The notes below the pieces were generated by a model. The model worked only from the letters and a program-made list of their open reading frames with translations. It made no database searches and was not told the origin of the DNA. From the NCBI GenBank assembly GCA_016926755.1, contig JAFGNZ010000224.1, forward strand, positions 1 through 64,000: a stretch of DNA of 64,000 bases. The letters are read 5' to 3'. Numbering within the stretch: the first letter of the stretch is position 1; each line of letters starts with the position of its first letter. The translations under genes and the position numbers were made by a program. Origin of the DNA: Myxococcaceae bacterium (GTDB taxonomy: Bacteria > Myxococcota > Myxococcia > Myxococcales > Myxococcaceae). Below are positions 1-35,403 of the stretch, piece by piece.

Positions 1-1138
1 GCGCCCATAGCCTCCGTGGCTGCCGGCCACGCCCTCCCGCCCGCTGGACACGTTGCCCTGCGTGCGCCCCGCCTTCTGCGCATTGGCCCCCTGGAACCCT
101 CCCAGGTACCCCTTCTCGCTCACGTCAATGCTGGCCCCGCTCCCCACCACCACCGCACCGCTCACCTCCAGCTCCAGCGGGTGCACCTGCTCGGTGCTCG
201 CTGTCTGCGCCCTCACGTACGCGCCGCTCCCCGTCACGCTCAGGCTCGACAGCTTCAGCGGCACTCCTCCCGCCACCACCAGCCCCGCGCTGCTACCCGA
301 CACCTCCACCGCCACTCCCTCCGCAAACCCCCACGGTTGCGTGAACGACACCACCGCATTGGCCACCCGGAGTCCCGTCACCTGCGGCGCCGAGAAGCTG
401 GCAATCGTCGTCCACGCTCCCAGCACCAGCTGCCCCACATTTTCCGCCTGCAGGTGGCCGTCGAACGTCGCCTGGCCCGAGGTGAGCTGCAGCGTCCCGA
501 CCGTCACGTCTCCGGACACATGCACGTTGGCGCCTCGGCTCACGACCAGCCGATCGAAGTGGCCTCCCGCCAACGGCGTGGCCTTCACATCCGTAATACC
601 GAAGACGCTTTCGCTGTCGAAGATGAGCTCGCCATGGTCCTGCGCCGTCCCCTTCAGGAAGACGGTGCCCGCTCCCCCCGCGAAGCTCTCCGCCCACACA
701 TGGCTCAGATCGAAGGTGCTGGTCGCCGTGTCGTAGTACACGGCCACACGCCCGCCGCCTCCGTAGAAGCCCCCCAGCGCTTCGATACTGCCGCCGCCCG
801 TCAGCGCGCCGACCTCCACACGGACGCCGCCGCCGGCACCCGAGTAGTAGCTGTCAGTCCCGTTGGCCATCAGCTTCCCGTCCAGCCTCAAGCTGCCCGC
901 CTTCAGCCGGATGAGGCCGCCGCCGTTGCCTCCGGGCGAGCTGACGCTCTCGCCCGCTCCTCCCGCGCCCATCTCTGTCGGGTTCGCGTAGTCCCCGTAC
1001 ACCTCCACCGGCGCCACGGCGCCGCTGTACCCGTAGCCTCCGTGGCTGCCGGCCACCTCTTCCAGCCCACTGGACACGTTGCCTTGCGTGCGCCCCGCCT
1101 TCTGCGCATTGGCCCCCTGGAACCCTCCCAGGTACCCC
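1..1138 (-). repeat. 342-codon glycine-rich direct repeat, second copy cut by window edge
   Basis: Bases 59-112 and 1085-1138 are identical over 54 nucleotides, an offset of exactly 1026 bases (342 codons), and the flanks are also close (11-30 matches 1037-1056). The encoded unit starts with a YLGGFQGANAQKAG motif, passes through GSHGGYG-like and GGGG-rich loops, and continues as a beta-helix-like or passenger-like stretch with strands such as GGRVAVYYD. Such near-identity, unlike the divergent Ig array, suggests recent duplication or conversion. More copies may follow beyond base 1. Confidence 0.85.
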
Positions 1139-4100
1139 CGGCCGCTCACGTCGATGCGGCTCGTGGCATCCACGCGCACCGCCCCCGTCACGACCAGATC
1201 CAGCACGTTGCGGCCCGACACTCCCTGCTGGCTGTGGGTGAGGATCGAGTGCTCCAGCACGTACACGTTGCGGAACGTGTGCTGGCCGTCCACTCGCAGC
1301 ATCTTGCCGCCTCGGATGATGATGTCCTGGTTCTCGAAGCGGAAGTCGTCCGCGGCGATGACGTCCGTCACCTCGGTGGGCTGCTGCGGCTCGACGACCG
1401 GCACCTCCAGGGAGGCCTCGTGCTGCAGGCCCATCAGGTCCTGCGCCACCAGGGACACCACCACCGTGCCCGTGGACGTCGGCGAGTACACCTGGCGCAG
1501 CACCACGCCCGCGGACGGCGACAGGAGCCTGTTGCCCACCCGGACGCCATTCACCCGGAACTCCGCCCAGGCGAGGGTCGCGCGCTCGTCGAGCACCTTG
1601 CCCGCGAGCTCCGCATCCACGCCGGTGCTCATATAGGCAATGGGGGTCAGCTGGGCGACGGGCGGCTGGTTCGGATTCAGCGTGAACGTCTGGCTGGCCG
1701 CCGTGCTCTCGCCGAGGTTGTCTTCAGCGATCGCCGCCACCACCACCTGGCTGGTGCTCTCAGTTGTCGCGACATCCCTGCACACCTCGCGGCACGCGGC
1801 GCCGCATGAGGTGGGCAGGGCCTCCATCGGCACGCCGTCCACCGTGGCGGCGAGGCCCGTGACGCTGAAGTTGTCAGTCGCCCGGGCGCACAGGCGCACC
1901 GTCTCCCCCCTCAGCGCCGGATTGGGCGACATGCTGAAGCTGAGCACCGGCGGCGAGTTGTCCAGCAGCGTCGTGGTGCGCTCCACCTCCGCCGTCCGCC
2001 CGCGCAGATCGGTGGCGACGGCGCGGAACACCACCGCCGTCTGCACCTCGAGCCTGGGGAGGGTGTACGTGGCGGTGATGGCAGAGCCAGTGCTGGCCGC
2101 GAGCTCCACTCCGTCCGCGTAGAGCCGCAGCGAGGCCAGATCCCCGTTCGGATCCGAGGCGCTGGCGCGAACGCTCACGGGCGTCCCCTCGGTCGCGCTC
2201 TGCGGCGGCTCGCTCCCTACGAACGACACCACCGGGGGCTCTCCGTCCGGGAGGACCGTGTAGCTCTTCTCGTTGACCGTGCGCCGGCCCGCGGCGTCCT
2301 CCGCGATCGCGCTCAACGTCACCTGCTGTCCCACCGCCTCCTCGGGCAGCAGGAGCGCGTAGGCAAGGCTCACGCTGCCATCGGACTCCTCGGGCGCAGC
2401 GGCCAGCTCCACGCCGTCCTTCTCGAGCGACAGGCGCACCGCGCCATCATCAGAGGCCTGCAGCTGGAGGGCGTTGACGAACGGACTCGCCCTCAACACG
2501 GCAGGCAACCCCACGGGCATTGCCGGAGCCTGGGTGTCGGGCAGCAGTTGCAGGACGACAGCGGCCTCCGCGATCCGCCCTGCCGCATCCGTGAGCACCA
2601 CCTTGAGCGGAGTGCTCGCCGTCGCGCTCACCACGGGCAGGCGCACCAGCCCAACGAGGCGCTCCGGATCAGCCGGGTCCGGCGCGAGGTTGCCCAGGTG
2701 CAGCATCCCCAGCATCACCGCCGCCGAAACCGGCGACAGCCCACCCGTGCGCCTGGCCGCCACGGAGATGACGGCGCCCGAGCGTGCAGTGCCTGAAGAG
2801 GGTGCCAGCAGCGACACGACCGGCGCGCCCGCGGTGGGGGCCTTCACTTCGACGACGAGCGCGGGTGACAGCGCCTCCGAGCCGCCCGCTCCACGCACGC
2901 GCAGCTGGACCTTGTGGCGCTGGCCCACCACGGACTGCCCGGGCACCGTCCAGCGCGCCCGCAGGCCCGTCTCATCCACTGCCACCACGGGCTGATCGTC
3001 CACGATCAGCTCCGCATCATCCAGGCCCAGGCCCCCCGCCAGCGCCGACAGGAACACCTCCGCGCCGGCCTCCACGGGCACCGGACTGGCCGGCGTGAAC
3101 ACCCGCGCCGAGGGCACCGCCGCGGCCGGCGGCACGAAGGCCCGCACTCCCGCGCTGGAGTCCGCCACGAGCAGCCGGCCAGCGGCCAGCACGGCGTCAC
3201 GCGCAAAGGAGGCCGCCACCTGCATCAGGCGCGTGGCAGGCTGGCCTTCCGGAAGGTGCCACAGCTCCACTCCCGCGGTGCCCTCGCTCACGAGGGCCAG
3301 CCGCCCCTCCAGCCGCACGCGCTGCACGGCGCCAGCCGTAGGGATGGTGCCCACCAGCTGCGGCGCCGAGGCATCCTCCAGCGAGTAGACGTGCAGCGAC
3401 GTCACCCCGCCAGCCACCGCCAGAGGCCCGTCGAGCGCCACCGCCGTCGCCGCCACGGGCAGGGTGGCCACGCGCCGCAGCTGCCCGGAGGGCGCCACCT
3501 CCACCACCGCCACGCCCTGCGCCCCCAACGCCACCAGCGCGCGCGCCTCCTCGCCGGCCACGTCCGAGGCCGCGCTGCCCAGCAGCAGGGACGCCTTCCC
3601 ATCTCCCGCGGGCCAGCGCACCGACTGCACGGTGCCCGCCGCCACGGTCCACAGCCGCCGCGGCGCCGCGGCGAAGTGCTCGACATTACCGAGCGCATTC
3701 AGCAGCTGGGAGCGGGCGCTGTCCGCCTGCAGCGTGCCCGCGGCGGTCTCCACCACCACCTTGAGCTGGGTGCCATCCAGCACCAGCACGTCACGGCCGG
3801 AGCGCTCCACCTGGCGCACGTCCGTCCCCGCCAGCAGCGCTCCCGTGGCGCGCACGTCCGCGCTGCCCACCGCGTCCAGCGCCTGCACGCCGGCGCCCCG
3901 AGCCGCCGCCAGCGCCCCCCCACGGAATGGCGCCAAGCCCATGGCCGTGTCCGGAATCGCCGCCAGGCCGGCGGGCGCCGCGGGCGTCGGCGTGGGCAGC
4001 CGCAGCGCCTGCACTCCTCCCGGCCCGGTCGCCAGCAGCAGGCCGCCGCCGAGGAGCAGCTCGCGCGCCTCCAGCGCCGAGCGTGCCATCACCCGCGGCT

Positions 4101-7100
4101 GCGCGGGCTCGCGGAAGTCGACCACCCGCAGCCAGCCGTCGTCGCACGCGACGTAGGCCACCCCGCGCACCACCTCCAGCGCACGCACCCCCGCTGGCAG
4201 CGACACGTCCGCCACCTGCGTCAACGTCTGGCCGCTCCCCCGCACCCACGCCCGCAGCGAGCGGTCCGTCCCCACCATCACGAGATCCCCATCCGCCTGC
4301 GCGGCCCGCACCAGCGCCGGGTGGACGGACAGCGACTGGAAGCCGAGCTGCCCTGCCTCGCTCCCCACCGGCACCCGCACCGAGGACGCGCTCTCCAGCA
4401 CCAGGGGCCCCTCCGCCAGCGCTCCCAGCAGTCGGCCGGAGCCGCCCTGTGCCATCGCCAGGCGCAGCGGCGCGGAGGGATCCCCCACGTCCCAGTACTC
4501 CACCACGTCCTGCCCGTTGCGCACGCGCGCCGTGTAGAACCGATCAGCCGATGCCACGTGGGTGTAGCGGCCCTCCAGCCGCGCCACCACCGCGGGCGAC
4601 TCCGGCGTGCCCACGTCCACCAGCCACAGGCCCCCCTCGTCCAGCGCCAGCGCCACATGCGAGCCCAGCGCCGCGAGGCCCACCGGCGCCTGGGGCGTTG
4701 CCACGGCTCCCAGCTCCTCCAGCGCCGGCTCCTCGGCCGTCCCGGACAGGCGCCCCACCCACAGCCCTGTCGCCGTGGCCACGTACAGCCGATCTCCCAG
4801 CCGCGCCATGCGCCCGGCGCCCTCCAGCGACACGCCCGCCACCGGGATGGGCAGCGCGGGCGCGACCACCGTGCGCGCCGACGTCGCCACCGCCGAGTTG
4901 CCGGAGCGATCCACCGCGCTCGCGCGCACCTCCAGCACCGCCCCAGCCGGCGCGTCCGCGGGCACGAGGAAGCGCAGCTCGGCGCCTCCCATGGCGCGCC
5001 GCACGCCCTCCAGCCAGATCTCCACCGACACCCGCTCCAACCCCACCGCGTCCGAGGTGATCGCGCGGACCGCCAGCTCGCTGCCCGCGGCCACCGTCCC
5101 GCCGGAGGGATCCACCGAGAGCGCGAGCGACGGCGCCACCAGATCGTCCACCACGGTGAGCGGCAGCGCCACGGGCTCGGACTCACGCCCCGCCCCGTCT
5201 CGGGCCACCGCCTTCACCACCACCGTGCGCGCCCCCACGCCGAGCGGCATCAGCAGCGAGGCCTCCACGTCCGAGCCCTCGAGCCGCGCCGCCTCCACGT
5301 CATCCACGAAGAAGCGCACCACGTCACCCGCGGAGCCAGGCGTGAGCTGAGCACGCACCCTCACGAGGCTGCCCTCGTAGATCGGCCCTGTGTCCACGCG
5401 CCCCAGCCACACGCCCGGGCCCATGCCGCCCGTCCCATCTCGCACGATCACCGTGCGCTCCACCGGCGCTCCACGGCGGCCCTCGGCGTCCACCGCGACC
5501 CACGTCACCTTGAGCGACACGTCCGCTCCCACCAGGGGCGCGCGCAGCTCACCGGACAGCGCCGGGGCCACCAGCTCCACCGGCTCCGAGCCCTCGAGCG
5601 TCACCTCCACCCTGGCGACCCGCGCCGGATCGACCGGCGCCGCCACCACCGCGAAGATCGCCCCCTCCTGGACCTCGAGGGGCACCTGCGCATCGGCGAG
5701 CTCCGGCCCTGCTCCGGCGTCGAACAGGGACACCTCGCGCGAGGCTCGGGCCTGGCGACCCGCAAGGTCGCGCACCACCAGCTCCACCACCGCCGTGTCA
5801 CCCGCGAGCGGCAGATCGACGTGGCTCGGCAGGCGCCCGTCGCGCGTGTCCAGGACAACCCCGTTGAGGACCAGCTCGGCGCTGAAGCCGTTGAGCGGCA
5901 GCACCTCGTCCGACACCTGAGCCCCCAGCGCCATCCGCGCCCCGCGAGCCCCCAACGAGGGGAGCCCCAGGGTCAACTGCGGAGTGGCCGGGCCTCGCGC
6001 GACGCCCAGGCGCGCCAGTCCGCGAGGCAGCCCACCCATGAGCGCCCCGGGGGCCAGCACCGCCGGGCCACGCACCGCCGGATACACGCCCGCACTCGCG
6101 GGCGCACCGCGCACGTCGAGCACGCGCGCCCCCTCCGCCGTCCCCACGATCAGCAGCTCGGCGAAGGCCGCCGCGCTGAGCGCAGGCGCGCCCAGAGGGG
6201 CCTCCCCACGCGCGGTGAGCGTGCCGGCCGACGCATCCACCGAGAAGCAGCTCACCTTCGCGCCGGCCACACAGGCGCCACCATCCGCCAGCGCCGCCAG
6301 CACCTTGAAGGACTCCGTGTCCAGAGCGGCGCGCGCAAGCACTCGCGGTGCATGCGGCACGGCGGCGTCCACCGCGACGAGCTCACCGTCAGCGAGCGCG
6401 AAGAGCCGCTCGCCTTCCGCCGCGAGGGCGGACACCGGGCCCAGCAGCAGCCGGCCAGCCCTGGTGCCCTGGGCGTCGCGCAGCTCCACGCCCTCATCCG
6501 TGGCGAGCGCGAGCCAGGAGCCCGCGCCGTCCAGCGCCAGAGGCTCCCGCGCCAGCGGTGTCGAGCCCTGTGGCTCGAGCCCAGGCAGCGCGAAGGACTC
6601 CAGCGCTCCGGCCCCGCCACGGCGCACCGCCACCACCACCGCGCTCCCCACGAAGGCTGCACCCACCGGCTCGCCGGAGAAGGTGCGCGCGGCCAGGCGC
6701 GCCCCGCTCTGCTGCGAGCGCAGCTCCACCACCCCCGCCCCACCGCCATCCGAGCGCACCACCAGCACGTGCTCCCCGCGTGCGGTGAGCGCCACGGGCT
6801 CGAGCGCGTCGGGCGCATCCTCCACCACGGCGGCCTGCCCGCTGGAGAAGACGGCCATCGCCCCCGTGCGCTCCGCCACGCCCGAGGCTCCACCTGGAGC
6901 CGTCACGCCCGCGCGTGCCACCACCGGAGCCCCCTCCGGGCCCTCCGGCAACAGCGCCTCGCCACGCCCACCGCCCAGGGAAGAGTGGAGCGGCACGTCC
7001 GCCCCCGCCACGCTGAGCGACAGCGCTGGCGCTCCGGCACCCTCCGCCTCACCCACCAGCACGAGGTTGGAGCCACCGAGCAGCAGCGAGCCGCCAGGCT

Positions 7101-22100: not shown

Positions 22101-25100
22101 CGCTGCCCAGCGCGGGCAGGAAGGTGGCGCTGAACACGGTGGGCTTGCCGGGGATGCCCGCCGGCGCGCTGGCGGTGGCCACGTTGCGACCATCCACGAA
22201 GAAGTGGACCGTCTGCACGCGCCCCTCCGCGTCGCGCGCGTCCGCCTCCATCCGCACGGGCTGTCCCTCGAAGATGGCGCTCCCGCTGAGGGGCTTGATC
22301 AAGGCCACGGTGGGCCTCTGATCCGGCGTCACCAGCACGGACACCGCCGAGCTCCATGCCTCCTGGCCCGCGACGTCCACCGCGCGCGCCCGGAAGACGA
22401 GCGTCTGATCCACCTCGGCCGGATCCGGCACGTAGACGAACTCGAAAGGCAGCTGGTTCTTGCGGCCGATCTCCACCTCGCCCGCGCCCGGACGGGTGAC
22501 GAAGAAGCCCACGCTGGCCACCGCCACATCGTCCGAGGCGGAGGCGAGCAGCGGCGAGGGCCTGCCGGCCACCATGCTGTCGGCAGCGGCCAGGGCCACC
22601 TGCGGGGGCTCATCCGCCACCACCTGGACCGTCACCGAGCCCGTGCCCTGGTTGCCAGAGGTGTCCGTCGCCGTGGCGGTGATGCTCAGCGCCTCCCCGG
22701 CCAGCTCCTTGGGCACCCGGTAGCCGAAGGCATACGGAGCCACGGGCATCGATGTGTGGGCGGTGCCGTTGAGAGCGAAGTCCACGCGCACCACGCCCAC
22801 GTTGTCGTCCGCGTCCGCCTCCACCCGCAGCAGCTGGCCGGCCTTGATCTGCGAGCCCGCCACTGGAGCGCGGAAGCTCACCGTGGGCGCCAGCGTGTCG
22901 GCAACCACCTGCACCTGGACGACGGGGGCCAGCGCCTCCTTGCCCGTGGTATCCCAGACCCGGGCGCTCAGCGTGAGCGTGCGGCCCGCCGACCCGTAGG
23001 GCAGCGGGATGCGGAAGCGATACGGAGCGCTGGTGCCGACGAAGCGGAGCATCCCGGCCGCCCCACCCTCCACCGTCGCCTCCACGCGCTGCACCCCCAG
23101 GTCATCACTCGCGGCCACCACGAAGGCGGCGTCACGGCCCTCGGTGAGGTTCTGGCCCTCACGCGGCTCGGCGATGACCACCGTGGGCGGGCGATCCTCG
23201 ACCACTGGCAGCCGCACCACCTGGCTGCGCCCCTCATGGCCGAACGAGTCAACCGCGAAGGCCTGCAGCTCCACCGCCTCGGCGCCCTCGGGCACGGACA
23301 CCCGGAAGACGAACGGCGGCGCCCGCAGCACCGTATCCAGGAAGACGCCGTTGACGCGCAGGCGCGCGCTGGTGACGCCCACGTCATCCTCGGCCGCCAA
23401 CGTCACCGTCACGTGGCTCTGCTCCACGACGGGGGTGCCGTCCGGAGGCGACAGGATCACGACGGAGGGCTCCTGATCCCGCACCACGTCCACCAGCTGG
23501 AGCGCCAGAGCGCTGAGGTTGCCGGCCGAATCGCGCGCGCGTGCCGCGATGAAGTAGGGCGCCGAGTCGCCCGCCGCCAGCTCGGCCAGCAGCGGCGCCT
23601 TGAACACGGCGCTCACCACCGGGCTGGTGACGGTGTAGCCATCCTCCTGGGTGACGCTCTCGGGCGAGAAGCCACCGGCGCGGCGGATGACCTTCAGCTG
23701 ATCCAGGCTCGCACCGGCGAGGATCTCCACCTCCTGGACGAAGGCATTGTCCAGGCCCACCGCCTCGACGGTGACGGCGCTCCCCTCCACCAGATCCTTG
23801 CCCAGCGCGGGGCGGAGGACGATCGCCTCGGGAGCAGAGGTGTCCGGCACCACCCTCACGACCTGCTCCAGGATCGAGCTGTGCCCCTCGAGATCCGTGG
23901 CCACCGCGCGCACCGTCAGCTGCGCCTCGGGGCGCGAGGGATCCAGCGCCACGAAGCCTGGCGGCAGCTGGAGCCGGCCTTTGAACTCGCGGAGCAGGGT
24001 GACGTCATTGTAGGGGGGCGACAGGCGCTGGGCCGCCAGACGCACCGCCGGATCCATCGCGATGGGGAGCCCGTCCTCGGAGAGCTGGTCTTCGAAGTAC
24101 TGGATCCCCCGTGACTCGGCGTACGAGACCTGCAGCGCCGGCTGCCCGTTGACGAAGTACTCCACCTGGGACACGCGCGTGTCGTCCCCGGACACCGCGG
24201 AGAGGACCAGCGAGATGCTGCCCTCGCTGAGCGTGGCTCCGGGGGCCGGCGCCACCATGGACAGCGCCGGGGCCTTCGGCTGCTTCCCCTCCACCAGGAG
24301 CCGCGCGCTCTGGCTCACGCCCAGGGTGTCCGTGGCCGTCAGCACCAACACCGTGGGGGCGCCGTCCGCCTGCACGGGTGGCGTGAACGAGGCCACGCCG
24401 CTGTAGCTCTTGCTCCCCGCGGCCGGTGTCACCGAGAGCACCGTGGCGCCCGCATACTGGAGCTCCACCTGGGCCAGCCCGACGTCATCCTCCGCTTTCA
24501 CCGCCAGCTGGTGAGGCACCGCCTGCAACAGCCGCACGTACCCGCTGTTGACCTCGGTGCTGGAGACGACGTGCCTGGCGCCGGGTGCATCCATGGGCAG
24601 GTGGTACTCCAGGGTGCCGAAGGAGACGCGCGGCCCGGAGTCCGCGAGGATCTCCAGGAAGCTCGCGGTGGAGGCAGTGGCGTTGCCGGCCCGGTCATAG
24701 GCGAGCGCCGTCAGCTGCAGCGGCGTGCCCGAGGTGGGCGTGGAGATGCTCAGCGGGAAGGAGGCCTGGCGCAGGTCGCGCCCCTCGCGGACACCGCGGA
24801 CGGCGCCATCCACCAGCAGCTGGACGCTCTGCACGGCCGTCTCATCCGAGACACTCACGTCAACCTGGAAAACCTCGCCGATCACCCGGGCCGAGCCGCT
24901 GATCGGCCGCGTGATGGACACCTGGGGCCCGCGCGTGTCCGCGCGCGCCACCACCTGTTGGCTCCGAGAGGACACCGCCCCGGCGTCATCCCGCACCACC
25001 GCGGTCAGCAGCGCCGAGCGCGGCGCCCACCCCTCGGGGATGCGCAGCTCGCTGCTCAGCGGCCGGGGCTGCCCAGGCGTGATCTCGATCCCTGACCAGG

Positions 25101-28100
25101 CCTGCACCGCCACCCGCTCGCCCGCCGCCTCCGCGCGCAGCTGGACGCGCTGCTGCTCGTAGCGCAGCCCCACCCGAGAGAGGGCCGGCGCCGTGCCGTC
25201 CGCCGCGCTCAGCAGCGTCACCACCACCTCCTCCACCTGCACCGCTCCAGGGAAGGACAAGTCCGCGCGGTGCGGCGCCGCGCTCAGATCCACCTGCCGG
25301 CGTCCACCGGGATGCGCCGCGAGGAAGGCCTGCGCCGCGGCGCTCCCCTCCAGCCCGGGCGTGAGGGCGAAGCGATACCGCACCTCGGCCCGCAACCCCG
25401 CCGCGGCGGCCTCGGGCTCCGCCGCGAGCACGAGCCTTCCAGGCTGATCTCCGAGCAGCCCCGTCGCCGGCGGCGCCACTCGAAGTGAGGCCGCCTCCGC
25501 CTGGAGCGCGAAGGCTTGATCCACACCGAACTCCAGCCGCACCGCGCTGCCGTGCGCGGCGACTCCCTGCGTCGAAGTCGGAAGGTGGAAGCTGCCGTCC
25601 GCGGAGAGGGCGACGAGAGCGCGCGTGGAGGCCACCAGCCAGGCCGCCTCCAACCCGGTATCCTCCTCCACCTCCACCGCGACCTGCTGCGCCGCCTCCT
25701 CGATCACGTACGTACCGGACGTGGGCCGCACCCACGTCAGCACGGGCGGCATGTCGGCCAGCAGCTCGCACGACAGGCTCGCGTGAGTGGTCCGCCCGAC
25801 GGCGTCCGCGGTCTGCGCGGTGACGGTGTAGGTGCGGGGCCCGAACGCGCCAAGGGCGGGCAGTTGAAGCTGCCACTGGCGCTGCACGCTGCTCGCGGGC
25901 TCGAAGGGCTCCACCGGCAGCGCGGTGCCATCCGCGGTCACCTGGAGCGACTGGACCTTCCCATCGTCACTCGCGGAGGCCACCAACTTCACCGTCGAAC
26001 CGGCGACGCACGTCTTCGCCGAGGGGGTGCCCTGTAGCTGCAGGTGCAGCCGAGGCGCCTCGGTGTCCTGGGCCTCGACGATGTCGAACGCGAGCTCGGT
26101 GGTCGGCGTGGCGTTGCCGGCGGGATCCAAGGCCCGCGCCCGCAGCACGTGGTGCCCCACGGCCACGCCCTGGAGGCTGAGCGTTCCCTCGAAGCTCGCC
26201 AGATAGCGCCGGCCGATGAGGATCTCCCCGGGGGACTGGGGGTTGGGCGTGCGCGTCTCCTCGAAGCGCTCATCCTTGGGGGCGAGCACCTCCGTGCCGC
26301 ACCCCTCTGCCCCGGGCTCGCAGTCCAGCTCCACCAGGACGCGCGCCACGCGCACGTCGTCCTCCACCTCCACGCGCACTCCCAGCGCGCCATCACGGCG
26401 CACGGCGAGCGTGCCCTCCCGAGGCGGGAGCGGCGCGGCCAACAGCGCGGAGGGCGGCTCGACGTCCGGCCTCACGTCCAGGATGACCTCGGCCTTGCCC
26501 GTCTGCCCGGCGGTGTCACGGGCCTCGGCGCCCACGGTCGGCGGGGCGCCCTTGCTGACAATGGGGGCCCAGACGGTGAGGAACTGCTGGCCATTGACCT
26601 GCAGGCGTGGCCCCGTCTCGGGCAGCGGCTGCTGGCGCACCCCGCCGGCCAGGCCCACCCAGCCCACGAGGCCATCGTCATCCCCCACGGTGATGGCCAG
26701 CCGCACATCCTCGCCTTCCTTGTAGGGCGTGCCCGCGGCCGGAGACACCACGCCGACCACCGGGAGCTCGTCCTTCACCACCGCCACCTCCAGCGTGCGC
26801 TCCGCGGTGAGGCCGGCCTTGTCGGTGGCCACTGCCCGCAGGGGCAGCTGCTGCCCGACAAGCTCCGCGCCAACGGGGATCTCCCACCGGAACACCTGGT
26901 AGAGGCCCTCGGTCGTCCCCGAGGTGAGGGCTCCGCGACTGTCCGGCGCGAACAGCTCCACCTTGCTGAGCCCCGTGTTGTCCGAAGAGGCCAGCTCCAC
27001 CGTCAGGGTGCGCCCGGCGAAGATCGGCGCGCCGGGGGCGGGCGAGCGGAAGGTGAGCAGCGGAGGACGGCTGTCCGGCACCAGCTCGACCTCCCACTGG
27101 GCCGTCTCGGTGTGCACCCCATCCGTTGCCCGCGCCTCGAGCACCACGGTGCGTGGAGCGCCGCTGGTGACGACGGAGAAGCGGTAGGGCGCCACGAGGT
27201 CGCTCCCCAGCGGCGCGCCATCCAGCAACAGCGTCACTCCCTTCACGCCCCCGTCGTCATTGGCGAACACCTCCACGTCCAGGGTGGCGCCCACCGTGAG
27301 CTCCGTGGGCGTGGACGGGTGGAAGGACACCTCGGGCGGCTGGTCGGCGCGGGTGTGGAATTGCACGTCGGGCGCCGCGCCCATGTTGCCCGACGCGTCA
27401 TAGGCACGCGCGGACAGCGTATGCAGCGGCCCGGTCATCAGCTGCTCGGGACGCAGCACCGCATGGGTCACGAACGAGCCGCGGACGCCGCTGTTCTCTC
27501 CCGGCGAGGTGTCGGTGAAGACGAGCTGGCCGTCCAACAGGATCTCGGCCTTCACCACGTCCCCGTCATCGAGGCCGGCCACGGTCACCAGCAGGTCCTG
27601 CGTCTCCAGAACCTCCGCCTGGGCGCGCGGGACGACGAAGGACGCGGAGGGCGGAACAGTGTCGGGGACGACGAAGAGCTCTATCTGCGCGTGCCTCACG
27701 AGCCCGGCCGAGTCGCGCGCCTGCGCCTCCACCACCAGGGGCGTCTGCGCCTGCACGGCCGGCAAGATGAACGGGATCCGGAACGGCGGCGTGGTGGCAA
27801 TGCCCACCGGAGCCTCGTTCACCGTCCAGCGCACCTCTACCGGCCCTCCCGAGTCATCGACAGCTCTCGCGGTCAGCTCGATGGAGCTGCCGCCCAGCAG
27901 GGTGGCCTGGGAGGCCGGTGTCAGGATGCTCAGCTGGGGCGGACTGTCCGCCTTCACCGTGACGTCCACCGATACCCGGCGCACCTGGCCGGCACTGTCG
28001 GTGGCCACCACCTCCAGGCGGCGGACACGCCCCACGTCCTCGCCAGGCGGCGTCCACGGAAGGGAGAACGGCTCGCTGCCCGCCGGGGTGCCACCGAGCC

Positions 28101-30237
28101 CGCCACGGGTGATGCGGGTGGAGGCCACCGAGGTCCCATCCACCAGCAGCGCCACCTGCGTGCCGAAGGCCATGGCATCGTCGCCCACCGTCCCGCTCAG
28201 CTGGAGGGGGCTGCCCGCGACCGCGTCCGCCGTGGGGCCGCGCGGCTGATGCAGCGTCAGCAACGGGGGCGAATCGGGGACGATGCGCACCAGGAGCGTG
28301 TCCGCACGGACCGGCCTCCGCGCCCGATCCAGCGCCTCCACCCGCAGCGCGACGCTGGAGCCAGCCGTCCCCTGGCGCGGAGTGAAGGTGAGCTCCCAGA
28401 GCGGCACCGGAATGGCCTCGCCCGTCGTGGGGTGCCTGCGGATCTCCACCCGGGGCAGATCCACGGACCCGGCCAGTGCGTCGTCGATGAAGTAGCGCAC
28501 CACCTGGAAGTCCGAGGTGGACAGGGTCCCGCTCATCCAGTTGCCGCTGGTGACGCGCAGCACCTGGGGCAGCCCCTCCACCAGCATCGCTCCCGGCTGG
28601 GGGAGCTCGATGACCATGGGCTGCTGGCTGGGCGTCGGCGTGCCCACCACCGGTACGGCGAGCTCCGGCCCCACCACGCGCTGGCCCCCGCTGTCGATGG
28701 CGGCGGCGGACAGGCGCAGCGTGCTCCCGCCGTACGGGGGCGCCTGGATGCGCAGGGAGTATGGGGGCTCGGCATCACGCCCGGCAGGGACGCCGTTGAC
28801 GAGGAACTCGACGGAGGGCATTGGGAGGTCGTCGGTGACCGCGGCGCTCAACTCGAATGAAGTGCCCGCGACGACGGACGAGGGGGCCACCAGGCGCACC
28901 GTGGGAGCGCCGTCCTTGACCTGCACCTGCGCCTCCACGCTCTGCTGGGCGTGCACGGCCCTGATGGTCGCCACGCCCGGGCGCAGCCCCGTCACCTTGC
29001 CGTCCCCGCCCACGCTGGCGACGTCCGGCGTCAGCGACGACCACACCGTCCCCAGCGCTCCCGGGGTGAGGTCCACGACGCGCTCGACGTCGTCTTCATC
29101 GACGATCACGCCCTCCAGGTGCAGTGAGGTCGAGCCCCCTACCCGCTCCACCACCGGCGCGTTCTCTTTGATGCGAATGGCCCTCAGGATCGCGGTGGAC
29201 TCCACGATGATCTCGGCGGAGGCGCTCTCGCTGGCGAACCGGGCCGTCAGCGTGGCGGTCCCATTGTTCCGAGCCTGGATGAGGCCCTCGGGAGACACGA
29301 CGAAGACCTCCGGGTTCGAGCTCTCGTAGGTGACGCCGTGCAAGGCGCCGCTGAGCTCCACCTCCCCTGCCATCGCGAAGTGGCCGATCACCTTCACCCG
29401 GGCGGTGGAGCCATAGCCCTGGGAGAGCAGCAACGGCGAGGGGTGTACCGACAGCTTCATCAGCGGATCGAACGCGCGCCCGCTGGTGAACTCGACCGTC
29501 GAGGCGTACGCCACCCGGCCATTGGCGCCAAACACGCTCACATCCGCCACGACGGCGCCATCCGGCGGCACCTTGCCGCCGTCCCGCACCGGGATGGAGA
29601 AGGCCACCTTGCCACTCCCCTGCACCTGCGGACGTGCCTGCTGACGGCGGACGCTGGCGAAGGCCACGGCCTCCGCGTCGCTGAGGCTGCCGTGAACCCT
29701 CCGGAGCGCCTCCACCGAGGCGCCGACGAGCGTCAGCTCCGCGTACGCCACGGGCCCTTGAGCCTCCACCGTCACCAGCAGCCGCGAGAGATCCTCGCTG
29801 GTCTGCACCTGCACGGCCCGAGGAGGCAGGGCGGGTGGCCCCTCGCTCAGCTTGAACTGGGCCGTGAGGGCCTCGCCGCTGCCACTGTTCGCGGGGCCAG
29901 CCACCACGGAGATGACCGCATCCTCCGGCAGCTGGTAACGCAGGGGCACGCGGAGGTGGAAGGGCACGGCGCCTACCACGTCCTGATCGACGATCAGCTC
30001 CTTCACCTCGACCAGCGTCCCCCGCGAGGCGGAGGTCGCCTTCACCGTCACCCGCAGCTGGGTGGCGCCTCCCTCGGTCGAGAAGCCCAGGTCCAGGGCG
30101 TTCGCCCCAGGCTGAAAGGGCGTGAGGGGGAATGCCGTCAGGACCCGATCCTGGGCGAAGGCACTGCCTGCCCACAAGGCCCCCAGCATGAGCGCACCCA
30201 CCGCTACGTACTGACGAAGCAACGCCCGCCGGGTCAT
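1..30237 (-). CDS. giant exported modular Ig/propeller/IPT protein, 3' end off window
   Basis: The frame begins with ATG at 30237 and runs without a stop to base 1, so at least 10,079 residues are encoded and the C terminus is not seen. A GAGGGGG ribosome site lies about 5 bases upstream. Residues 1-28 form a Sec signal peptide (RR near the N terminus, hydrophobic core, AFA-QD cleavage). Reading the minus strand gives, in order: an unassigned beta-rich segment; two BIG2-like domains (about 257-434); about two dozen tandem Ig-like domains of 95-100 residues (about 445-2838); about seven super-modules of LVIVD-type propeller repeats, a Big_5 domain and two IPT/TIG-like domains (about 2840-7200); alternating Ig and propeller blocks; and glycine-rich repeats from about 9529. 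The start overlaps the upstream prolyl isomerase stop as ATGA. It is probably a surface or secreted adhesin or scaffold; no catalytic domain was recognised. Export route and anchoring cannot be judged without the C terminus. Confidence 0.93.
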   Translation of the reverse strand, partial: MTRRALLRQYVAVGALMLGALWAGSAFAQDRVLTAFPLTPFQPGANALDLGFSTEGGATQLRVTVKATSASRGTLVEVKELIVDQDVVGAVPFHLRVPLRYQLPEDAVISVVAGPANSGSGEALTAQFKLSEGPPALPPRAVQVQTSEDLSRLLVTVEAQGPVAYAELTLVGASVEALRRVHGSLSDAEAVAFASVRRQQARPQVQGSGKVAFSIPVRDGGKVPPDGAVVADVSVFGANGRVAYASTVEFTSGRAFDPLMKLSVHPSPLLLSQGYGSTARVKVIGHFAMAGEVELSGALHGVTYESSNPEVFVVSPEGLIQARNNGTATLTARFASESASAEIIVESTAILRAIRIKENAPVVERVGGSTSLHLEGVIVDEDDVERVVDLTPGALGTVWSSLTPDVASVGGDGKVTGLRPGVATIRAVHAQQSVEAQVQVKDGAPTVRLVAPSSVVAGTSFELSAAVTDDLPMPSVEFLVNGVPAGRDAEPPYSLRIQAPPYGGSTLRLSAAAIDSGGQRVVGPELAVPVVGTPTPSQQPMVIELPQPGAMLVEGLPQVLRVTSGNWMSGTLSTSDFQVVRYFIDDALAGSVDLPRVEIRRHPTTGEAIPVPLWELTFTPRQGTAGSSVALRVEALDRARRPVRADTLLVRIVPDSPPLLTLHQPRGPTADAVAGSPLQLSGTVGDDAMAFGTQVALLVDGTSVASTRITRGGLGGTPAGSEPFSLPWTPPGEDVGRVRRLEVVATDSAGQVRRVSVDVTVKADSPPQLSILTPASQATLLGGSSIELTARAVDDSGGPVEVRWTVNEAPVGIATTPPFRIPFILPAVQAQTPLVVEAQARDSAGLVRHAQIELFVVPDTVPPSASFVVPRAQAEVLETQDLLVTVAGLDDGDVVKAEILLDGQLVFTDTSPGENSGVRGSFVTHAVLRPEQLMTGPLHTLSARAYDASGNMGAAPDVQFHTRADQPPEVSFHPSTPTELTVGATLDVEVFANDDGGVKGVTLLLDGAPLGSDLVAPYRFSVVTSGAPRTVVLEARATDGVHTETAQWEVELVPDSRPPLLTFRSPAPGAPIFAGRTLTVELASSDNTGLSKVELFAPDSRGALTSGTTEGLYQVFRWEIPVGAELVGQQLPLRAVATDKAGLTAERTLEVAVVKDELPVVGVVSPAAGTPYKEGEDVRLAITVGDDDGLVGWVGLAGGVRQQPLPETGPRLQVNGQQFLTVWAPIVSKGAPPTVGAEARDTAGQTGKAEVILDVRPDVEPPSALLAAPLPPREGTLAVRRDGALGVRVEVEDDVRVARVLVELDCEPGAEGCGTEVLAPKDERFEETRTPNPQSPGEILIGRRYLASFEGTLSLQGVAVGHHVLRARALDPAGNATPTTELAFDIVEAQDTEAPRLHLQLQGTPSAKTCVAGSTVKLVASASDDGKVQSLQVTADGTALPVEPFEPASSVQRQWQLQLPALGAFGPRTYTVTAQTADAVGRTTHASLSCELLADMPPVLTWVRPTSGTYVIEEAAQQVAVEVEEDTGLEAAWLVASTRALVALSADGSFHLPTSTQGVAAHGSAVRLEFGVDQAFALQAEAASLRVAPPATGLLGDQPGRLVLAAEPEAAAAGLRAEVRYRFALTPGLEGSAAAQAFLAAHPGGRRQVDLSAAPHRADLSFPGAVQVEEVVVTLLSAADGTAPALSRVGLRYEQQRVQLRAEAAGERVAVQAWSGIEITPGQPRPLSSELRIPEGWAPRSALLTAVVRDDAGAVSSRSQQVVARADTRGPQVSITRPISGSARVIGEVFQVDVSVSDETAVQSVQLLVDGAVRGVREGRDLRQASFPLSISTPTSGTPLQLTALAYDRAGNATASTASFLEILADSGPRVSFGTLEYHLPMDAPGARHVVSSTEVNSGYVRLLQAVPHQLAVKAEDDVGLAQVELQYAGATVLSVTPAAGSKSYSGVASFTPPVQADGAPTVLVLTATDTLGVSQSARLLVEGKQPKAPALSMVAPAPGATLSEGSISLVLSAVSGDDTRVSQVEYFVNGQPALQVSYAESRGIQYFEDQLSEDGLPIAMDPAVRLAAQRLSPPYNDVTLLREFKGRLQLPPGFVALDPSRPEAQLTVRAVATDLEGHSSILEQVVRVVPDTSAPEAIVLRPALGKDLVEGSAVTVEAVGLDNAFVQEVEILAGASLDQLKVIRRAGGFSPESVTQEDGYTVTSPVVSAVFKAPLLAELAAGDSAPYFIAARARDSAGNLSALALQLVDVVRDQEPSVVILSPPDGTPVVEQSHVTVTLAAEDDVGVTSARLRVNGVFLDTVLRAPPFVFRVSVPEGAEAVELQAFAVDSFGHEGRSQVVRLPVVEDRPPTVVIAEPREGQNLTEGRDAAFVVAASDDLGVQRVEATVEGGAAGMLRFVGTSAPYRFRIPLPYGSAGRTLTLSARVWDTTGKEALAPVVQVQVVADTLAPTVSFRAPVAGSQIKAGQLLRVEADADDNVGVVRVDFALNGTAHTSMPVAPYAFGYRVPKELAGEALSITATATDTSGNQGTGSVTVQVVADEPPQVALAAADSMVAGRPSPLLASASDDVAVASVGFFVTRPGAGEVEIGRKNQLPFEFVYVPDPAEVDQTLVFRARAVDVAGQEAWSSAVSVLVTPDQRPTVALIKPLSGSAIFEGQPVRMEADARDAEGRVQTVHFFVDGRNVATASAPAGIPGKPTVFSATFLPALGSGNRAMTLTAVAVDLAGQETSSAPVVLGTVRDTVAPEVELVDPPGWDVVTEGELVTLSAAADDNASVAQVEFFIEGLSVGSTAVSVPGPANRPLYQRQWLAPTGFAGQTRQVHAAAVDPSENRGLSTIEHVELGLAPAFIFNPFPPPPPGPASSTLLRGNPDRRVVLGTAGSDPSLNRVALSRVEQGVATELGLLEVDGPPKAAAFLGELVLVGTERYRTPQGAEFPPLLTVVDTSAAPMLSRRGKVDLPGENILGMAAAGRLAFVANGEEGVAVVDVGDPYSPIRLNTRPIVGPAHDVAVMGELLLVAAGPGGLRVLDLRDPMLRELGFVALPGEAVRVAVEAERAYVACRDSNATLAVVDVANPREPLVRALLPHRSARQDLLATGLAAVSVSGNLALASSSLVNQDGQPIKGLLSASVLRADGTLSTFVRANLPRAADLAIAAGQPVALFGNEGAAVFSLPRFLVTDVSPSEGDRQVAVESSVAVEFSAPPDPTSVTAATVQLREADPTLGRVVPAALAVEGRTVQLTPAAPLAVSTPYFVVVPACDEEAEIACVTTGSGQELAEPFIAWFRTRATAGAAPHIASVQPSAGPVEGATQVVLTGTDFAPGARLFFSEAEAQQVEVSADGKTLKALTPPQVEGPALVTVVNPDGGEGSLLGGFIYLPILQINFVAPASGSVEGGTRVELFGGGFQRGAAVRFKGQPATQVRVLGPGRLEAVTPAGAFGPADVTVENPDGKRAIAPGAFLYSKLVVSSVIGRYDPRTDGDTQPDYRLARGTPLRVALHERTAWVLSAASVYLGAKTPAELLTLSTPGGLGAVDVEEPENASVLGGVSILPPYMPVDLTVRGTRAYVVADAPELPFVEVAGEGGPSLLVFDLSDRTAPAHVTAVPFTGRARGVALAGDLALVAAGEGGLTVFSIADPDRPVLLGAQRSFLMGGQVREVSVERVGIADRYALVEARVDDEASTLVVDLATTGLAAVGEFPEPLGDVVARGTQALSAMGRLRTLSLTPAERPYVQALIPPLMPSLNFVASAMGPHVAAAASGSPGAAALQMVEASQLSAPRSIDALDLFPAMGLSDVAIERDVVVATISSTYSTSLGSAQDGLAVVRLPFPMVVATTPMAGEMTARPTVAPRVSFNVPVELGPAGQVRLLVLDGSANGTEVPAAVTVSGAEVTVAPEAELETGSRYRLVLEGLRAADTQAVMPGAFWLEFGTSLSRTATPVSLAAMLPRQGPTGGGTQVVLSGSGFEPGVEVRFNGLPATEVQVSEDGTTVTLRSPAGAEGAATLEVKNPSGTGLLRPGAFLYTEALALTGLSPARGPTSGGTRVLIQGRGFSPTGLVRVRFNGVEGHLPRVLGLNWLEVYTPNGLRGPADVTVENPDGASATLPKAFTFDQPTQASVGVSGTLRDAVVIGSYSYVVGSAGLHVVDLSGLYTRGPNAGGGVAIPPDRQAELVDEDNDLIDDRIVGWASAGDLWAVSYPPEGGDRLFASGIHSRDEEGAITAGAVYEFDISNPQQPRLVATQAIPGDGVYDVDARGDRLLGAAATQGFHTFDISHPPFPIRDFPSQPAAQAASIEGGLAAVGVGVRTASGDVEDGLFRTLSVEGAVAVLGQLPMDVQRVRLRGPLAAVAAGDQGLVLVDVSDPSAPAQLAAVDVKGFATDVRLAGDLAYVAAGSAGVAVVDISSLAQPRLLYHVTGALGGSARAVALTPGGRLVSLRQSAAGGGWRVDFGPATDLSVVGVSVAPGERVPLDLASITVVLSTTVEPSSAAEAFRLTADGVEVPGVLEAGDAQDARSTMLFRLQGPLPPGAAMRLTVSNALRNRFGKALVAPLQVDFQAAFAPGSAPRISQLVPRVGPVGGGTFSELLGQYFDDSCEVFVGGVQAEVLARSLTRLTLEIPPGEPGLADVVVVSQHTGLSARRPGGYFYTLPLQAFAATPRFLNPRGGSTVEVVGEGFLPDWAHPLGSTQARVRGMVASQVTVLSPTRLRAIAPPGSFGDATVMVVSPDGVERSAAPSKVGYGLPFLGEERAMAVRPGAFARSPLSPYYIYTSAGAAGKGNKFQQPYWGRLTGGGTVPESYRMASFDVQLAGRPRGAGAQVVNPPDDQVDLLMAVLERYLPASTPLPDVELMPDSLDVALSGERLYVANGLSGLSVLDGNGTLEQGPDGNLVSLALLGRAKLSLLATRVVPTPVGAWVISNGLKDPPSDQPPPGCSPVKDQIGAGGAVTLVDARVPTDPLIVAAGPGGDGFEPYSATVANGRLYVVTGHHQGVGYLKCELDQPLPPLPEYSMAGGSRGGQRTLYSRKESKPRGSLLVYSSAGADAAPVGSLQEDGNLTDVLVRGDVAFIASAEHGLAFADVSDPAHPLVFHRIPFDTALSNTPGEPQRLRLIGDVLFVAANEGGVVLVDVSDPHEPVLLSGGNTEKAMDVLPVGDRLLLAGQTRLAELEMPFMLVTDTLPARGERVPPSISALEVRTSRPLAAPSVTAETVRLVGPEGAVPLTLSVREDHSWLDYAIVAVPQQPLAPDATYQLEVDTTVTDQRGGALLVPLRTTFRTAGSGARAPRIVSVEPTTASTVGGQVVKVLGTGLGGVSEAFIGGQPAGVTLVSEEELHLTVPAAATAGPVDLRVVDQGGPEATLSAGLLYLDPLAGRKVTLSPDHGPIEGGTRVRLAVTGRAVAPGTQVRVGGLAAEDVDVRDLSSLEFTTPEAEGAGLAAVELVRPGEDPVAVGIYSYDLPVGVTMDLPGFPPREASDIKLVGDRLYVGVPTPNLFGLEIFDVRLEERPLRLGGLSTQAPVRGLDVEGALALLATDVLGLAAVDVSRPEMPFLVRSTPTAGLATAVRIEGARAFVSTVNATEAPGYVQVFDATSASLGLLESIPLNADALALELGPERLYALTSDVVDGGGNGLSLTVYDRTGQQRGRIAVDAQLTSYEELVRSRVVVRASRAYVTANRRLYVFDLSDEAHPQRIQATDLGAELAGIGWAGGTLFVATDGESTLQSIPPVELLPVGMVPAPGSLATPGTQVRVDFTLPVKPDSLTEETLQVSVVHADGTGGAVAGTQTVEFAVRGSSVLFTPEAPFQPGDVVEVYADGLVAFDLRQQAAAFTGTFEVVDEQARQPVLATLEPASGRAELPTAAVLTGSGFREGSTVWVGGVQAQAVVLSETLIELVVPPSPGGVAGAAAVEVRDPSGLFARRLGGFVYREALKLTRLTPERSPQQGGVRVQLEGRGFAPGLRVIFGGTPAFDVRVAGTQKAEAVAPTHTAGVVDVEVRLGSEAFTLPAAFLYGSGAVARLDTPPVRDVVIEGGVAYAALGATVDIYSSDGQLLKADRKTSQGGLLLANLSEPTHVTSINPPLIFPGSGGARRVLKRGNAVFVAAGAGGVRRVDVERPAEAHETATILVEGEATDIALGGALLFVGDAQGIKVFDVSDDERKPLRVGTRTIPGGVSALALHGPHLLVSSASAQAPRLHVLDARTGDLVELGSVELVAPAVHVTAEGTRAFLSQGSAKQVAIYELADPASPAPAGTLVVDDPLGGHWVSAEQTRVAAGVAYVAAGGGKVQRFAVPVGAPPVRLSRAAVVGDARTLALMGRYLLVGTLVLDRQGTPVELPLSDPEDKDLPLAGALASVELDTLEVRGTRPGEGERVAPGEVARVLLNALPDAATAGEVTLARFDGEAVPVARQVSADEQGGQVVLVPYAPLALNTAYELRVGAGLADLRGSTLGTEVKVRFLTGSNASQERPLITAVSPAYGLEAGEDEVDVLGSGFLQGCSVRVGGLSAQVLAVAPDGRSVRVRVPPGKAGAAAVEVINPNLLSDLKLGAYRYLVKPTIASVLPVSAPYGSNQVVTITGEGLFPGSQVTFGGVPARSVVLNDAGALQVEIPEGVTGRVELAVATPGVPPQRAALAEGFTFTLAPGLKLEGMGTVLARRGHRLFVARAGSLEAVDFSTPASPWPADTVDGVSLPVDLAVRGDELFLAGQGEVVRYDVAACGPVPRSACSPDELERVRLAPTSAPSIQAVAAGRTTLYVAMAGSSELALLEPVAGAYAVVGRTLLGPGVVRDLEVVEDVLLVLVEDGVNSRLELRGTESSSLPLLGMVRGLGAPVGGLAREGTRVAVAAGGRLQLLDVTDAATPVILASAVDGNGSTSSALSLSGPWLLAARPGRVSWVDVTDGLRERTFASVGTGQGAVVINGTAVVGSGGSLQLLKLPYPTVDTLAPVPGGRVAPGAAVTVALPVELPAAVASNSTLELLDGAVLVPGELVRAQGTLSFVPAVTLDPARTYTARVQLAPRPEVVGGSVAEAWRYALRAGGEPVSLRVDAVTPGSGPVVGGIPVDVVGAGFDSSTRVFIGGVEAARLEEAQPELLRVALPSAASAGPAVVRVVRQDGAEARAPSNFLYVAPLTFAGVTPGTVDLAGGWVRISGAGFTRGLEVLFNGVLVSTRNWAPDRIEALVPAGLEGFLALTLRQPGTPPLQVESALYRGDVRPPAVVRVEPMDTVGVLEVPLASAFEVRFDEPLAASSAGGLRLLRHPSRVAEPGGAVLMGDGRTLRFTPAAPLASTTMYVLSAQGVADVAGNVAAGYERTFRTVDTVPPTVQLRRVGGGAVADGDLFAAAVDWTFQVQGSDDSGSFVTASLSVVGAQVVPGAQGTFTVRWPMEAAEGLSELVAVTQDPSGNSRSMKVTVQVVDDAPPSVSFQQPQAALTLEEGAAVDVVVSASDNHALASLELQLGGVSLARKSVASGTSTALLNHQVLVGAVPGEAASITQVLTAFATDDRGQVAAAEPRTLTVTRDVTAPAVTVLSPVTGMRVVGGAKVRLEAKAVDTNGVQEVEFFVDGARVGSASQAPWSLAWAAPVVTDTESHTVRMVALDRRGNAGEATATFSVEPPSARPYVAMRTPAEGATLQEGRPFEVVVDVAAPAGVASVVVRAGAQEAVLTREPWRHTFMAPVLDSGSASLALEAQATDRSGVTSALVRRQVMVADDGQGAVTVSLEQEPGGSLLLGGSNLVLVGEAEGAGAPALSLSVAGADVPLHSSLGGGRGEALLPEGPEGAPVVARAGVTAPGGASGVAERTGAMAVFSSGQAAVVEDAPDALEPVALTARGEHVLVVRSDGGGAGVVELRSQQSGARLAARTFSGEPVGAAFVGSAVVVAVRRGGAGALESFALPGLEPQGSTPLAREPLALDGAGSWLALATDEGVELRDAQGTRAGRLLLGPVSALAAEGERLFALADGELVAVDAAVPHAPRVLARAALDTESFKVLAALADGGACVAGAKVSCFSVDASAGTLTARGEAPLGAPALSAAAFAELLIVGTAEGARVLDVRGAPASAGVYPAVRGPAVLAPGALMGGLPRGLARLGVARGPATPQLTLGLPSLGARGARMALGAQVSDEVLPLNGFSAELVLNGVVLDTRDGRLPSHVDLPLAGDTAVVELVVRDLAGRQARASREVSLFDAGAGPELADAQVPLEVQEGAIFAVVAAPVDPARVARVEVTLEGSEPVELVAPALSGELRAPLVGADVSLKVTWVAVDAEGRRGAPVERTVIVRDGTGGMGPGVWLGRVDTGPIYEGSLVRVRAQLTPGSAGDVVRFFVDDVEAARLEGSDVEASLLMPLGVGARTVVVKAVARDGAGRESEPVALPLTVVDDLVAPSLALSVDPSGGTVAAGSELAVRAITSDAVGLERVSVEIWLEGVRRAMGGAELRFLVPADAPAGAVLEVRASAVDRSGNSAVATSARTVVAPALPIPVAGVSLEGAGRMARLGDRLYVATATGLWVGRLSGTAEEPALEELGAVATPQAPVGLAALGSHVALALDEGGLWLVDVGTPESPAVVARLEGRYTHVASADRFYTARVRNGQDVVEYWDVGDPSAPLRLAMAQGGSGRLLGALAEGPLVLESASSVRVPVGSEAGQLGFQSLSVHPALVRAAQADGDLVMVGTDRSLRAWVRGSGQTLTQVADVSLPAGVRALEVVRGVAYVACDDGWLRVVDFREPAQPRVMARSALEARELLLGGGLLLATGPGGVQALRLPTPTPAAPAGLAAIPDTAMGLAPFRGGALAAARGAGVQALDAVGSADVRATGALLAGTDVRQVERSGRDVLVLDGTQLKVVVETAAGTLQADSARSQLLNALGNVEHFAAAPRRLWTVAAGTVQSVRWPAGDGKASLLLGSAASDVAGEEARALVALGAQGVAVVEVAPSGQLRRVATLPVAATAVALDGPLAVAGGVTSLHVYSLEDASAPQLVGTIPTAGAVQRVRLEGRLALVSEGTAGVELWHLPEGQPATRLMQVAASFARDAVLAAGRLLVADSSAGVRAFVPPAAAVPSARVFTPASPVPVEAGAEVFLSALAGGLGLDDAELIVDDQPVVAVDETGLRARWTVPGQSVVGQRHKVQLRVRGAGGSEALSPALVVEVKAPTAGAPVVSLLAPSSGTARSGAVISVAARRTGGLSPVSAAVMLGMLHLGNLAPDPADPERLVGLVRLPVVSATASTPLKVVLTDAAGRIAEAAVVLQLLPDTQAPAMPVGLPAVLRASPFVNALQLQASDDGAVRLSLEKDGVELAAAPEESDGSVSLAYALLLPEEAVGQQVTLSAIAEDAAGRRTVNEKSYTVLPDGEPPVVSFVGSEPPQSATEGTPVSVRASASDPNGDLASLRLYADGVELAASTGSAITATYTLPRLEVQTAVVFRAVATDLRGRTAEVERTTTLLDNSPPVLSFSMSPNPALRGETVRLCARATDNFSVTGLAATVDGVPMEALPTSCGAACREVCRDVATTESTSQVVVAAIAEDNLGESTAASQTFTLNPNQPPVAQLTPIAYMSTGVDAELAGKVLDERATLAWAEFRVNGVRVGNRLLSPSAGVVLRQVYSPTSTGTVVVSLVAQDLMGLQHEASLEVPVVEPQQPTEVTDVIAADDFRFENQDIIIRGGKMLRVDGQHTFRNVYVLEHSILTHSQQGVSGRNVLDLVVTGAVRVDATSRIDVSGRGYLGGFQGANAQKAGRTQGNVSSGLEEVAGSHGGYGYSGAVAPVEVYGDYANPTEMGAGGAGESVSSPGGNGGGLIRLKAGSLRLDGKLMANGTDSYYSGAGGGVRVEVGALTGGGSIEALGGFYGGGGRVAVYYDTATSTFDLSHVWAESFAGGAGTVFLKGTAQDHGELIFDSESVFGITDVKATPLAGGHFDRLVVSRGANVHVSGDVTVGTLQLTSGQATFDGHLQAENVGQLVLGAWTTIASFSAPQVTGLRVANAVVSFTQPWGFAEGVAVEVSGSSAGLVVAGGVPLKLSSLSVTGSGAYVRAQTASTEQVHPLELEVSGAVVVGSGASIDVSEKGYLGGFQGANAQKAGRTQGNVSSGREGVAGSHGGYGR
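8640..21780 (-). repeat. about seven propeller/Big_5/IPT/IPT super-modules inside the giant gene
   Basis: Big_5-like domains (SbsA-type Ig domains ending in a Y-x-L/V strand and an F-x-T-like strand) occur near 20.5, 18.6, 16.7, 14.6, 12.9, 11.0 and 9.3 kb. Each is followed by one or two IPT/TIG-like domains with a GGTxVxxxGxGF core. Each is preceded by LVIVD-type strands (for example GVALAGDLALVAAGEGGLTV) that would form a beta-propeller. The spacing of 1.65-2.1 kb marks a higher-order repeat of about 550-700 residues. A last Big_5 domain near 8.5 kb closes the region and leads into Ig-like domains at about 8.3-7.1 kb. Confidence 0.75.
21780..28920 (-). repeat. tandem Ig-like domain array inside the giant gene
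   Basis: Translation of this stretch gives a run of similar ~95-100-residue beta-sandwich domains. Each opens with a pattern like P-x-V-x-L-x-x-P, carries an acidic turn such as DDxxV or DNxSV, then a VEFFVDG-like strand, and ends with a strand like AxAxDxxG. The spacing suggests roughly 24-25 copies. The copies differ a lot at DNA level, so the array is old rather than freshly expanded. Such arrays usually act as stiff extenders in bacterial surface proteins; that role is inference here. Confidence 0.8.
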
Positions 30238-35390: not shown

Positions 35391-35403
35391 CTCGAGACGC
35401 TCC

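Follow-up and report, generated by a model that had tools for sequence, protein, structure and literature searches.

A predicted megadalton surface protein encoded in a conserved operon with a polymorphic Rhs toxin in Myxococcaceae

The first 30,237 nucleotides of the stretch analysed here (the window: 64,000 nucleotides from position 1 of contig JAFGNZ010000224.1, GenBank assembly GCA_016926755.1 of a Myxococcaceae bacterium) are occupied by a single minus-strand gene, referred to below as the giant, which is the second member of an operon that also encodes two PpiC-type isomerases and a large Rhs protein. A preliminary description, made from the nucleotide sequence alone, had proposed one uninterrupted register from the ATG at 30237 to base 1, and this is borne out: no stop is present in 10,079 codons, and the remaining two minus-strand frames hold 234 and 83 stops over the same interval. 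Among 200 mononucleotide shuffles of the window, no stop-free run exceeded 740 codons, so a chance open reading frame (ORF) can be excluded even with 73% G+C. Furthermore, the G+C content at the first, second and third codon positions (approximately 0.75, 0.52 and 0.91) is steady in each 500-codon block of the frame, which argues against a hidden frameshift or non-coding stretch; chance and a shadow of G+C composition were both rejected as origins of the frame on the stop counts, the shuffles and this coding signature. On the plus strand, an ORF of 3,460 codons (3,460 amino acids; 2914-13296) is a shadow of the GC-rich codon use of the giant, and could be mis-annotated. Upstream, the giant's frame stays open as far as a GTG at 30693 (10,231 codons); the ATG at 30237 is likely to be the start codon, because it opens a signal peptide, overlaps the stop of the upstream gene and aligns with the start in relatives. 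The translated part alone (residues 1-10079) has a mass of 1,034 kDa, in line with the earlier estimate of more than 1 MDa. The further claim that the protein is among the largest predicted in bacteria has to be tempered: bacterial giant proteins reach at least 39,678 amino acids (PMC10066038), and hence size alone is not novel.

The protein is incomplete at base 1, as had been recognised, since this is also base 1 of the contig (C317, 74,282 bp, one of 409 contigs in the 9.59 Mb source genome, G000); the gene is thus cut by the assembly, not by biology. At the right end of a second contig, C194 (30,427 bp), a minus-strand fragment begins within the same glycine-rich repeat and ends after 115 codons, probably supplying the stop codon that the preliminary description had proposed to look for in the next contig part. 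As its best alignment is to the extreme end of the giant from a one-contig genome (G034), this fragment is most likely the true C-terminus, the link between the two contigs being based on sequence similarity rather than reads; no contig bridging the gap was found. Should both contigs break off in one and the same repeat unit, the gap would amount to 89 residues and the protein to approximately 10,283 amino acids, although it may be longer, because G034 has several more repeat units. The assemblies of G000 and G157 (at the start of locus L105) both break within the glycine-rich C-terminal repeats (window 1-1290), which implies that short-read databases will under-report the length of the giant.

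The Ig, propeller and IPT domains described in this register are recovered as Pfam matches to Big_7, Big_2, Big_5, TIG and LVIVD (Table 1), with the limits of the propellers placed from LVIVD repeats and their spacing. Iterated profiles find 14 TIG and seven to eight Big_5 domains in each of three species compared. In G000, G034 and G157 the variable end is rich in repeats; G001 and G041 have an Ig-like end with cysteines there, and G005, G068 and G131 a cysteine-rich one that contains other domains. A Pfam scan of the glycine-rich repeats gave no match. A fold search with a model of the N-terminus returned common Ig/FN3 folds, with resemblance to LigA and S-layer proteins, and so indicates an 'Ig-like chain' and nothing further; no known Rhs or Tc delivery subunit was among the matches listed, which is not evidence of absence. 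Its tandem bacterial Ig-like domains, which follow a secretion signal, place the giant among the Ig-domain surface proteins of the BIG superfamily. By contrast, LapA/SiiE-type adhesins secreted by type I systems are unlike the giant with its Sec-like signal peptide, and no RTX (HemolysinCabind) repeats were found by Pfam in any quarter of the protein, the last ~200 residues (C194 and the gap) lying outside that scan. Where type V exoproteins have a haemagglutination-activity (two-partner secretion) domain, the N-terminus of the giant is Ig/FN3-like in the model and Big_2 according to Pfam. Signal peptides and lipoboxes, here and below, were judged by eye or by simple motif.

Table 1. Positions of the giant, its predicted parts and the adjoining isomerase genes in the window
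Feature	Position	Strand	Residues	Basis or remark
Giant, predicted secreted protein	1..30237	-	1-10079	Stop-free frame; cut at contig end, most likely continuing across the assembly gap on C194
Probable Sec signal peptide (MTRRALLRQYVAVGALMLGALWAGSAFAQ)	30151..30237	-	1-29	Read from sequence; start aligned in relatives
Family-defining N-terminal pair of FN3/Ig-like beta-sandwich domains	29458..30150	-	30-260	AlphaFold2, mean predicted local distance difference test (pLDDT) 88.6
Two Big_2 Ig-like domains	28918..29454	-	262-440	Pfam; fold search with N-terminal model
Array of Big_7 Ig-like domains	21859..28905	-	445-2793	Pfam, iterated profiles
Module of LVIVD-type propeller, Big_5, TIG and TIG in six copies, followed by a stretch of propeller size and TIG-TIG-Big_5	8368..21570	-	~2890-7290	
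More Ig domains of the Big_7 type and another propeller-like region	1378..8367	-	~7291-9620	Collinearity with G001 ends here
Variable C-terminal region	1..1290	-	~9650-10079	Glycine-rich, probably beta-helical repeats of ~330 amino acids; broke the assembly
PpiC1, peptidyl-prolyl isomerase lipoprotein	30234..31187	-		Rotamase_2; stop overlaps the ATG of the giant (ATGA)
Divergently transcribed PpiC-type isomerase	31553..32530	+		Also adjoins most of the other operon copies examined

The order of the operon, established from gene calls and from other copies, is PpiC1, giant, PpiC2 and a lipoprotein of the Rhs type (4,000-5,000 amino acids) with YD repeats and a lipobox. In G000, PpiC2 and the Rhs gene (4,774 amino acids) are located on C194, and stop and start codons overlap by 4 bp at all three junctions; the overlaps between giant and PpiC2 and between PpiC2 and Rhs are also present in G001, G005, G034, G041 and G068. 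Directly after the stop of the G000 Rhs gene is an ORF of 117 amino acids, and this small downstream gene is a candidate immunity gene. At six loci a second arrangement is observed, with Rhs upstream of the giant. This arrangement marks a second clade (L091, L092, L084), and at least one genome (G063) has both. In two operons, G063a (L068:2743-6897) and G059 (L080:15053-19207), the giant and the large Rhs gene are separated by an additional gene for a YD-repeat protein of 1,384 amino acids that has a signal peptide.

Full-length homologues of the giant, of 9,773 and 9,955 codons from stop to stop, are present in two genomes of the same genus (one of them in two contigs), with single local alignments covering residues 8-9624 (44.8% identity) and 1-9373 (42.5%). 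Identity is even along the protein, at 31-58% per 250 residues, and falls only in the last ~600 residues. A profile of the family-defining N-terminus, applied to one genome per species, identified 36 loci in 32 of the 96 genomes of the family Myxococcaceae; 30 of the 36 frames comprise 9,682-11,473 codons, and five shorter frames hit contig ends. The only interrupted copy, in the one-contig 9.49 Mb genome G059 (L079/L080), consists of frames of 6,143 and 4,266 codons with the Rhs gene present downstream, and reflects either a true break or a sequencing error. Beyond the family, the same profile picks up five genomes from elsewhere in the order, among them the one-contig G131 with a frame of 12,712 codons. 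The ratio of non-synonymous to synonymous substitution rates (dN/dS) at the N-terminus was calculated for ten close pairs, nine of which have values of 0.09-0.25 and one of 0.41. Where measured, the giant is under purifying selection, and its length and the arrangement of its parts are fixed across a bacterial order. An alignment-based scan of genome contigs identified six named relatives, and named carriers of the giant include Myxococcus xanthus AM003, M. vastator, Corallococcus exercitus and Pyxidicoccus caerfyrddinensis; a single-sequence scan of genome contigs found nothing, and plasmid and phage collections contained no match.

The distribution of the Rhs partner, studied with a profile of the region upstream of its YD shell and again with one genome per species, follows that of the giant closely. 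This Rhs subfamily is present in 31 of the 32 giant-positive genomes of the family and in none of the 64 giant-negative ones (Fisher test, p = 2e-24), and both genes also occur in four genomes from other families of the order. Where a genome has two giants it has two Rhs genes of this subfamily as well, and all pairs found on the same contig are adjacent. The distances between giants are correlated with those between Rhs proteins (Mantel r = 0.914, p <= 0.0002), and this holds for paralogous clades inside one genome: the two copies in G063 are 41% and 46% identical, and one of them is 60-61% and 69-71% identical to the copies in G055, with both genes in agreement. As the copies in G063 are farther from each other than one of them is from G055, this co-divergence does not just reflect the descent of the species.

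The Rhs partner itself has matches to RHS_repeat, DUF6531 and Rhs_assc_core, with Ig-like and Glucodextran_B repeats in front (Pfam, NCBIfam), and its nearest solved structures in the PDB are Rhs cocoons. The cores are alike in all 45 pairs compared and the C-termini, after the DPxG-type end of the core, in only two of the 45, which implies that this is a polymorphic toxin. Lipobox motifs such as WAGAC, LAAGC and VVGC are found in the N-termini. A match to TTR_TEN1-4 has an E value of 1e-4, below the curated cut-off of that family, and the best stretch of the Rhs profile on the teneurin-like protein (9ifo/9pt5) falls in the C-terminal YD part. The 844 positions before the YD stretch match nothing convincing, and neither the FN-plug nor the NHL propeller was detected. 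An AlphaFold2 model of the region before the YD shell was poor, with a pLDDT of 53, and was set aside rather than taken into a fold search. The partner is accordingly no more than a candidate teneurin-like protein in the strict sense.

A minus-strand cluster upstream of the operon (32655-40870) encodes a CHAT/nSTAND1 protein, which PADLOC also matches to SAVED_CHAT, together with a C25-like peptidase and a zf-HC2/TPR/CHAT protein. No such cluster was seen adjoining the other operon copies, and it may be an independent locus for caspase-like signalling or defence.

The reading we favour, and consider on balance the probable one, is that the giant is a secreted megadalton surface protein, encoded second in a conserved and translationally coupled operon, which forms a fibre displaying or aiming the Rhs toxin at contacting cells. 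Every product of the operon would be exported via Sec, with the two PpiC lipoproteins serving as periplasmic foldases or chaperones for long beta-rich chains. The giant would extend from the cell surface as a fibre of some 50-60 Ig-like domains and about eight propellers with an exchangeable C-terminal end, and the Rhs lipoprotein would enclose its variable toxin within the YD shell. Held, displayed or aimed by the giant at a neighbouring cell, the shell would transfer its toxin upon contact, and relatives with the matching downstream immunity gene would survive. What the sequences show is the frame and its conservation, the operon, the joint occurrence and divergence of the two genes and the polymorphic C-termini of the Rhs proteins, whereas the location at the surface, the contact between giant and Rhs, and the delivery are inferred. 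Given the operon that it almost always shares with a large Rhs toxin in relatives throughout the order, the giant probably belongs to a contact-killing system. That it is more specifically a dedicated display or delivery device for surface Rhs toxins, independent of the type VI secretion system (T6SS), with a fibre of possibly a quarter of a micrometre, in a contact-killing system of two giant proteins specific to myxobacteria, is a tentative extension that we regard as possible but rather doubtful.

Several observations weigh against the fibre reading. No outer-membrane exporter was identified. Two genomes, G016 and G157, have a giant and no detected Rhs, both of these giants running off their contigs. 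The relatedness of the genomes inflates the Fisher and Mantel figures, and co-inheritance demonstrates joint function, not physical contact. In addition, no giant partner of the teneurin-like toxin of Bacillus is mentioned in the accessible text of PMC13018210, so that having a giant need not be a general property of YD-shell toxins.

Among the alternatives, the one that survives best is that the giant is a surface adhesin or coat with a role of its own, such as cohesion or the binding of prey or matrix, with the Rhs protein co-regulated and independently delivered. Ig arrays and propellers are typical of adhesion, the N-terminal model is similar to LigA and to S-layer proteins, and a BAP-type giant adhesin built of Ig-like modules is known (PMC4647330). 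However, the near-perfect co-occurrence, equal copy number and co-divergence exceed what co-regulation needs, and the pair is kept together in two gene orders, which makes this explanation unlikely. Less plausible still is a role of the giant as envelope scaffold or export factor, folding the Rhs lipoprotein or moving it to the surface without aiming it: the gene for the giant lies between those of two PpiC foldases, both of them ahead of the Rhs gene, and the tight translational coupling suggests a fixed stoichiometry, but no barrel or secretion-pore family scores above its cut-off in the giant, and ~1 MDa of Ig and propeller domains would make an improbable export pore. It also seems very unlikely that the giant is translated as one chain and then cut into several shorter functional proteins, because, despite a modular layout with clear boundaries and the self-cleavage of bacterial teneurin-like shells described in PMC13018210, length and domain order are fixed across genera and no copy except that of G059 shows signs of being split into separate genes. 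An assembly chimaera or pseudogene, as a 409-contig draft broken in repeats and the interrupted G059 copy might suggest, is scarcely credible and largely refuted by the low dN/dS, the constant coding signature and the collinear copies in one- to three-contig genomes, a chimaera having been rejected on the collinear orthologues in closed genomes.

How surface Rhs and teneurin-like toxins gain access to their targets is not settled in recent papers (PMC10433427, PMC13018210). The delivery of large signal-bearing Rhs toxins of M. xanthus is described there as T6SS-independent, with a route like that of contact-dependent inhibition presumed, not shown (PMC10433427), and the bacterial teneurin-like toxins, frequent in Myxococcaceae, as having no obvious delivery machinery (PMC13018210). 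One such toxin subfamily is almost invariably encoded in the same operon as this protein of ~1 MDa, which makes the latter a concrete, testable candidate for the missing part, and a conserved genomic context is now available for a very long bacterial gene. No PpiC-giant-Rhs operon with a collinear ~10,000-amino-acid protein was found in the literature searched, preprints and most subscription journals being outside its scope, and within that literature the giant would be a previously undescribed component of surface polymorphic toxin systems.

The closest known systems include the large surface Rhs/YD polymorphic toxins of myxobacteria, such as Rhs4 and Rhs5 of M. xanthus, which the operon partner resembles in being an Rhs protein of ~4,000-5,000 amino acids with a signal sequence and a polymorphic C-terminus, but for which the accessible part of the review that describes them mentions no giant partner or PpiC foldases (PMC10433427). 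The teneurin-like toxins share with the Rhs partner the lipoprotein signal, an Ig-like and possibly TTR-like N-terminus, the YD shell, a polymorphic C-terminal toxin and enrichment in Myxococcaceae (PMC13018210). They differ in their FN-plug and NHL propeller, features not detected here, and the accessible text on them mentions no co-encoded protein of ~10,000 amino acids and does not contain the term 'PpiC'. Very long secreted or surface proteins tied to contact lifestyles are likewise encoded by giant ORFs in Omnitrophota and in other bacteria that attach to hosts or prey (PMC10066038), although those of Velamenicoccia are mostly poorly conserved with few annotated domains, whereas length, domain order and operon are fixed here. 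GhpA, the grappling hook of Aureispira (9flw), is another large protein of Ig-like type, from a predator that acts by contact; one fragment of it is in the fold list at Z 7.9, within background, and with no homology of sequence or system shown the likeness is by analogy only. Tandem bacterial Ig domains are shared with LigA/LigB and BAP, and LigA matches the N-terminal model with Z 14.2 over 174 residues, the root-mean-square deviation of 13.2 corresponding to two domains held at different angles. The giant departs from this common architecture by its seven propeller/TIG/Big_5 units and by sharing its operon with an Rhs toxin.
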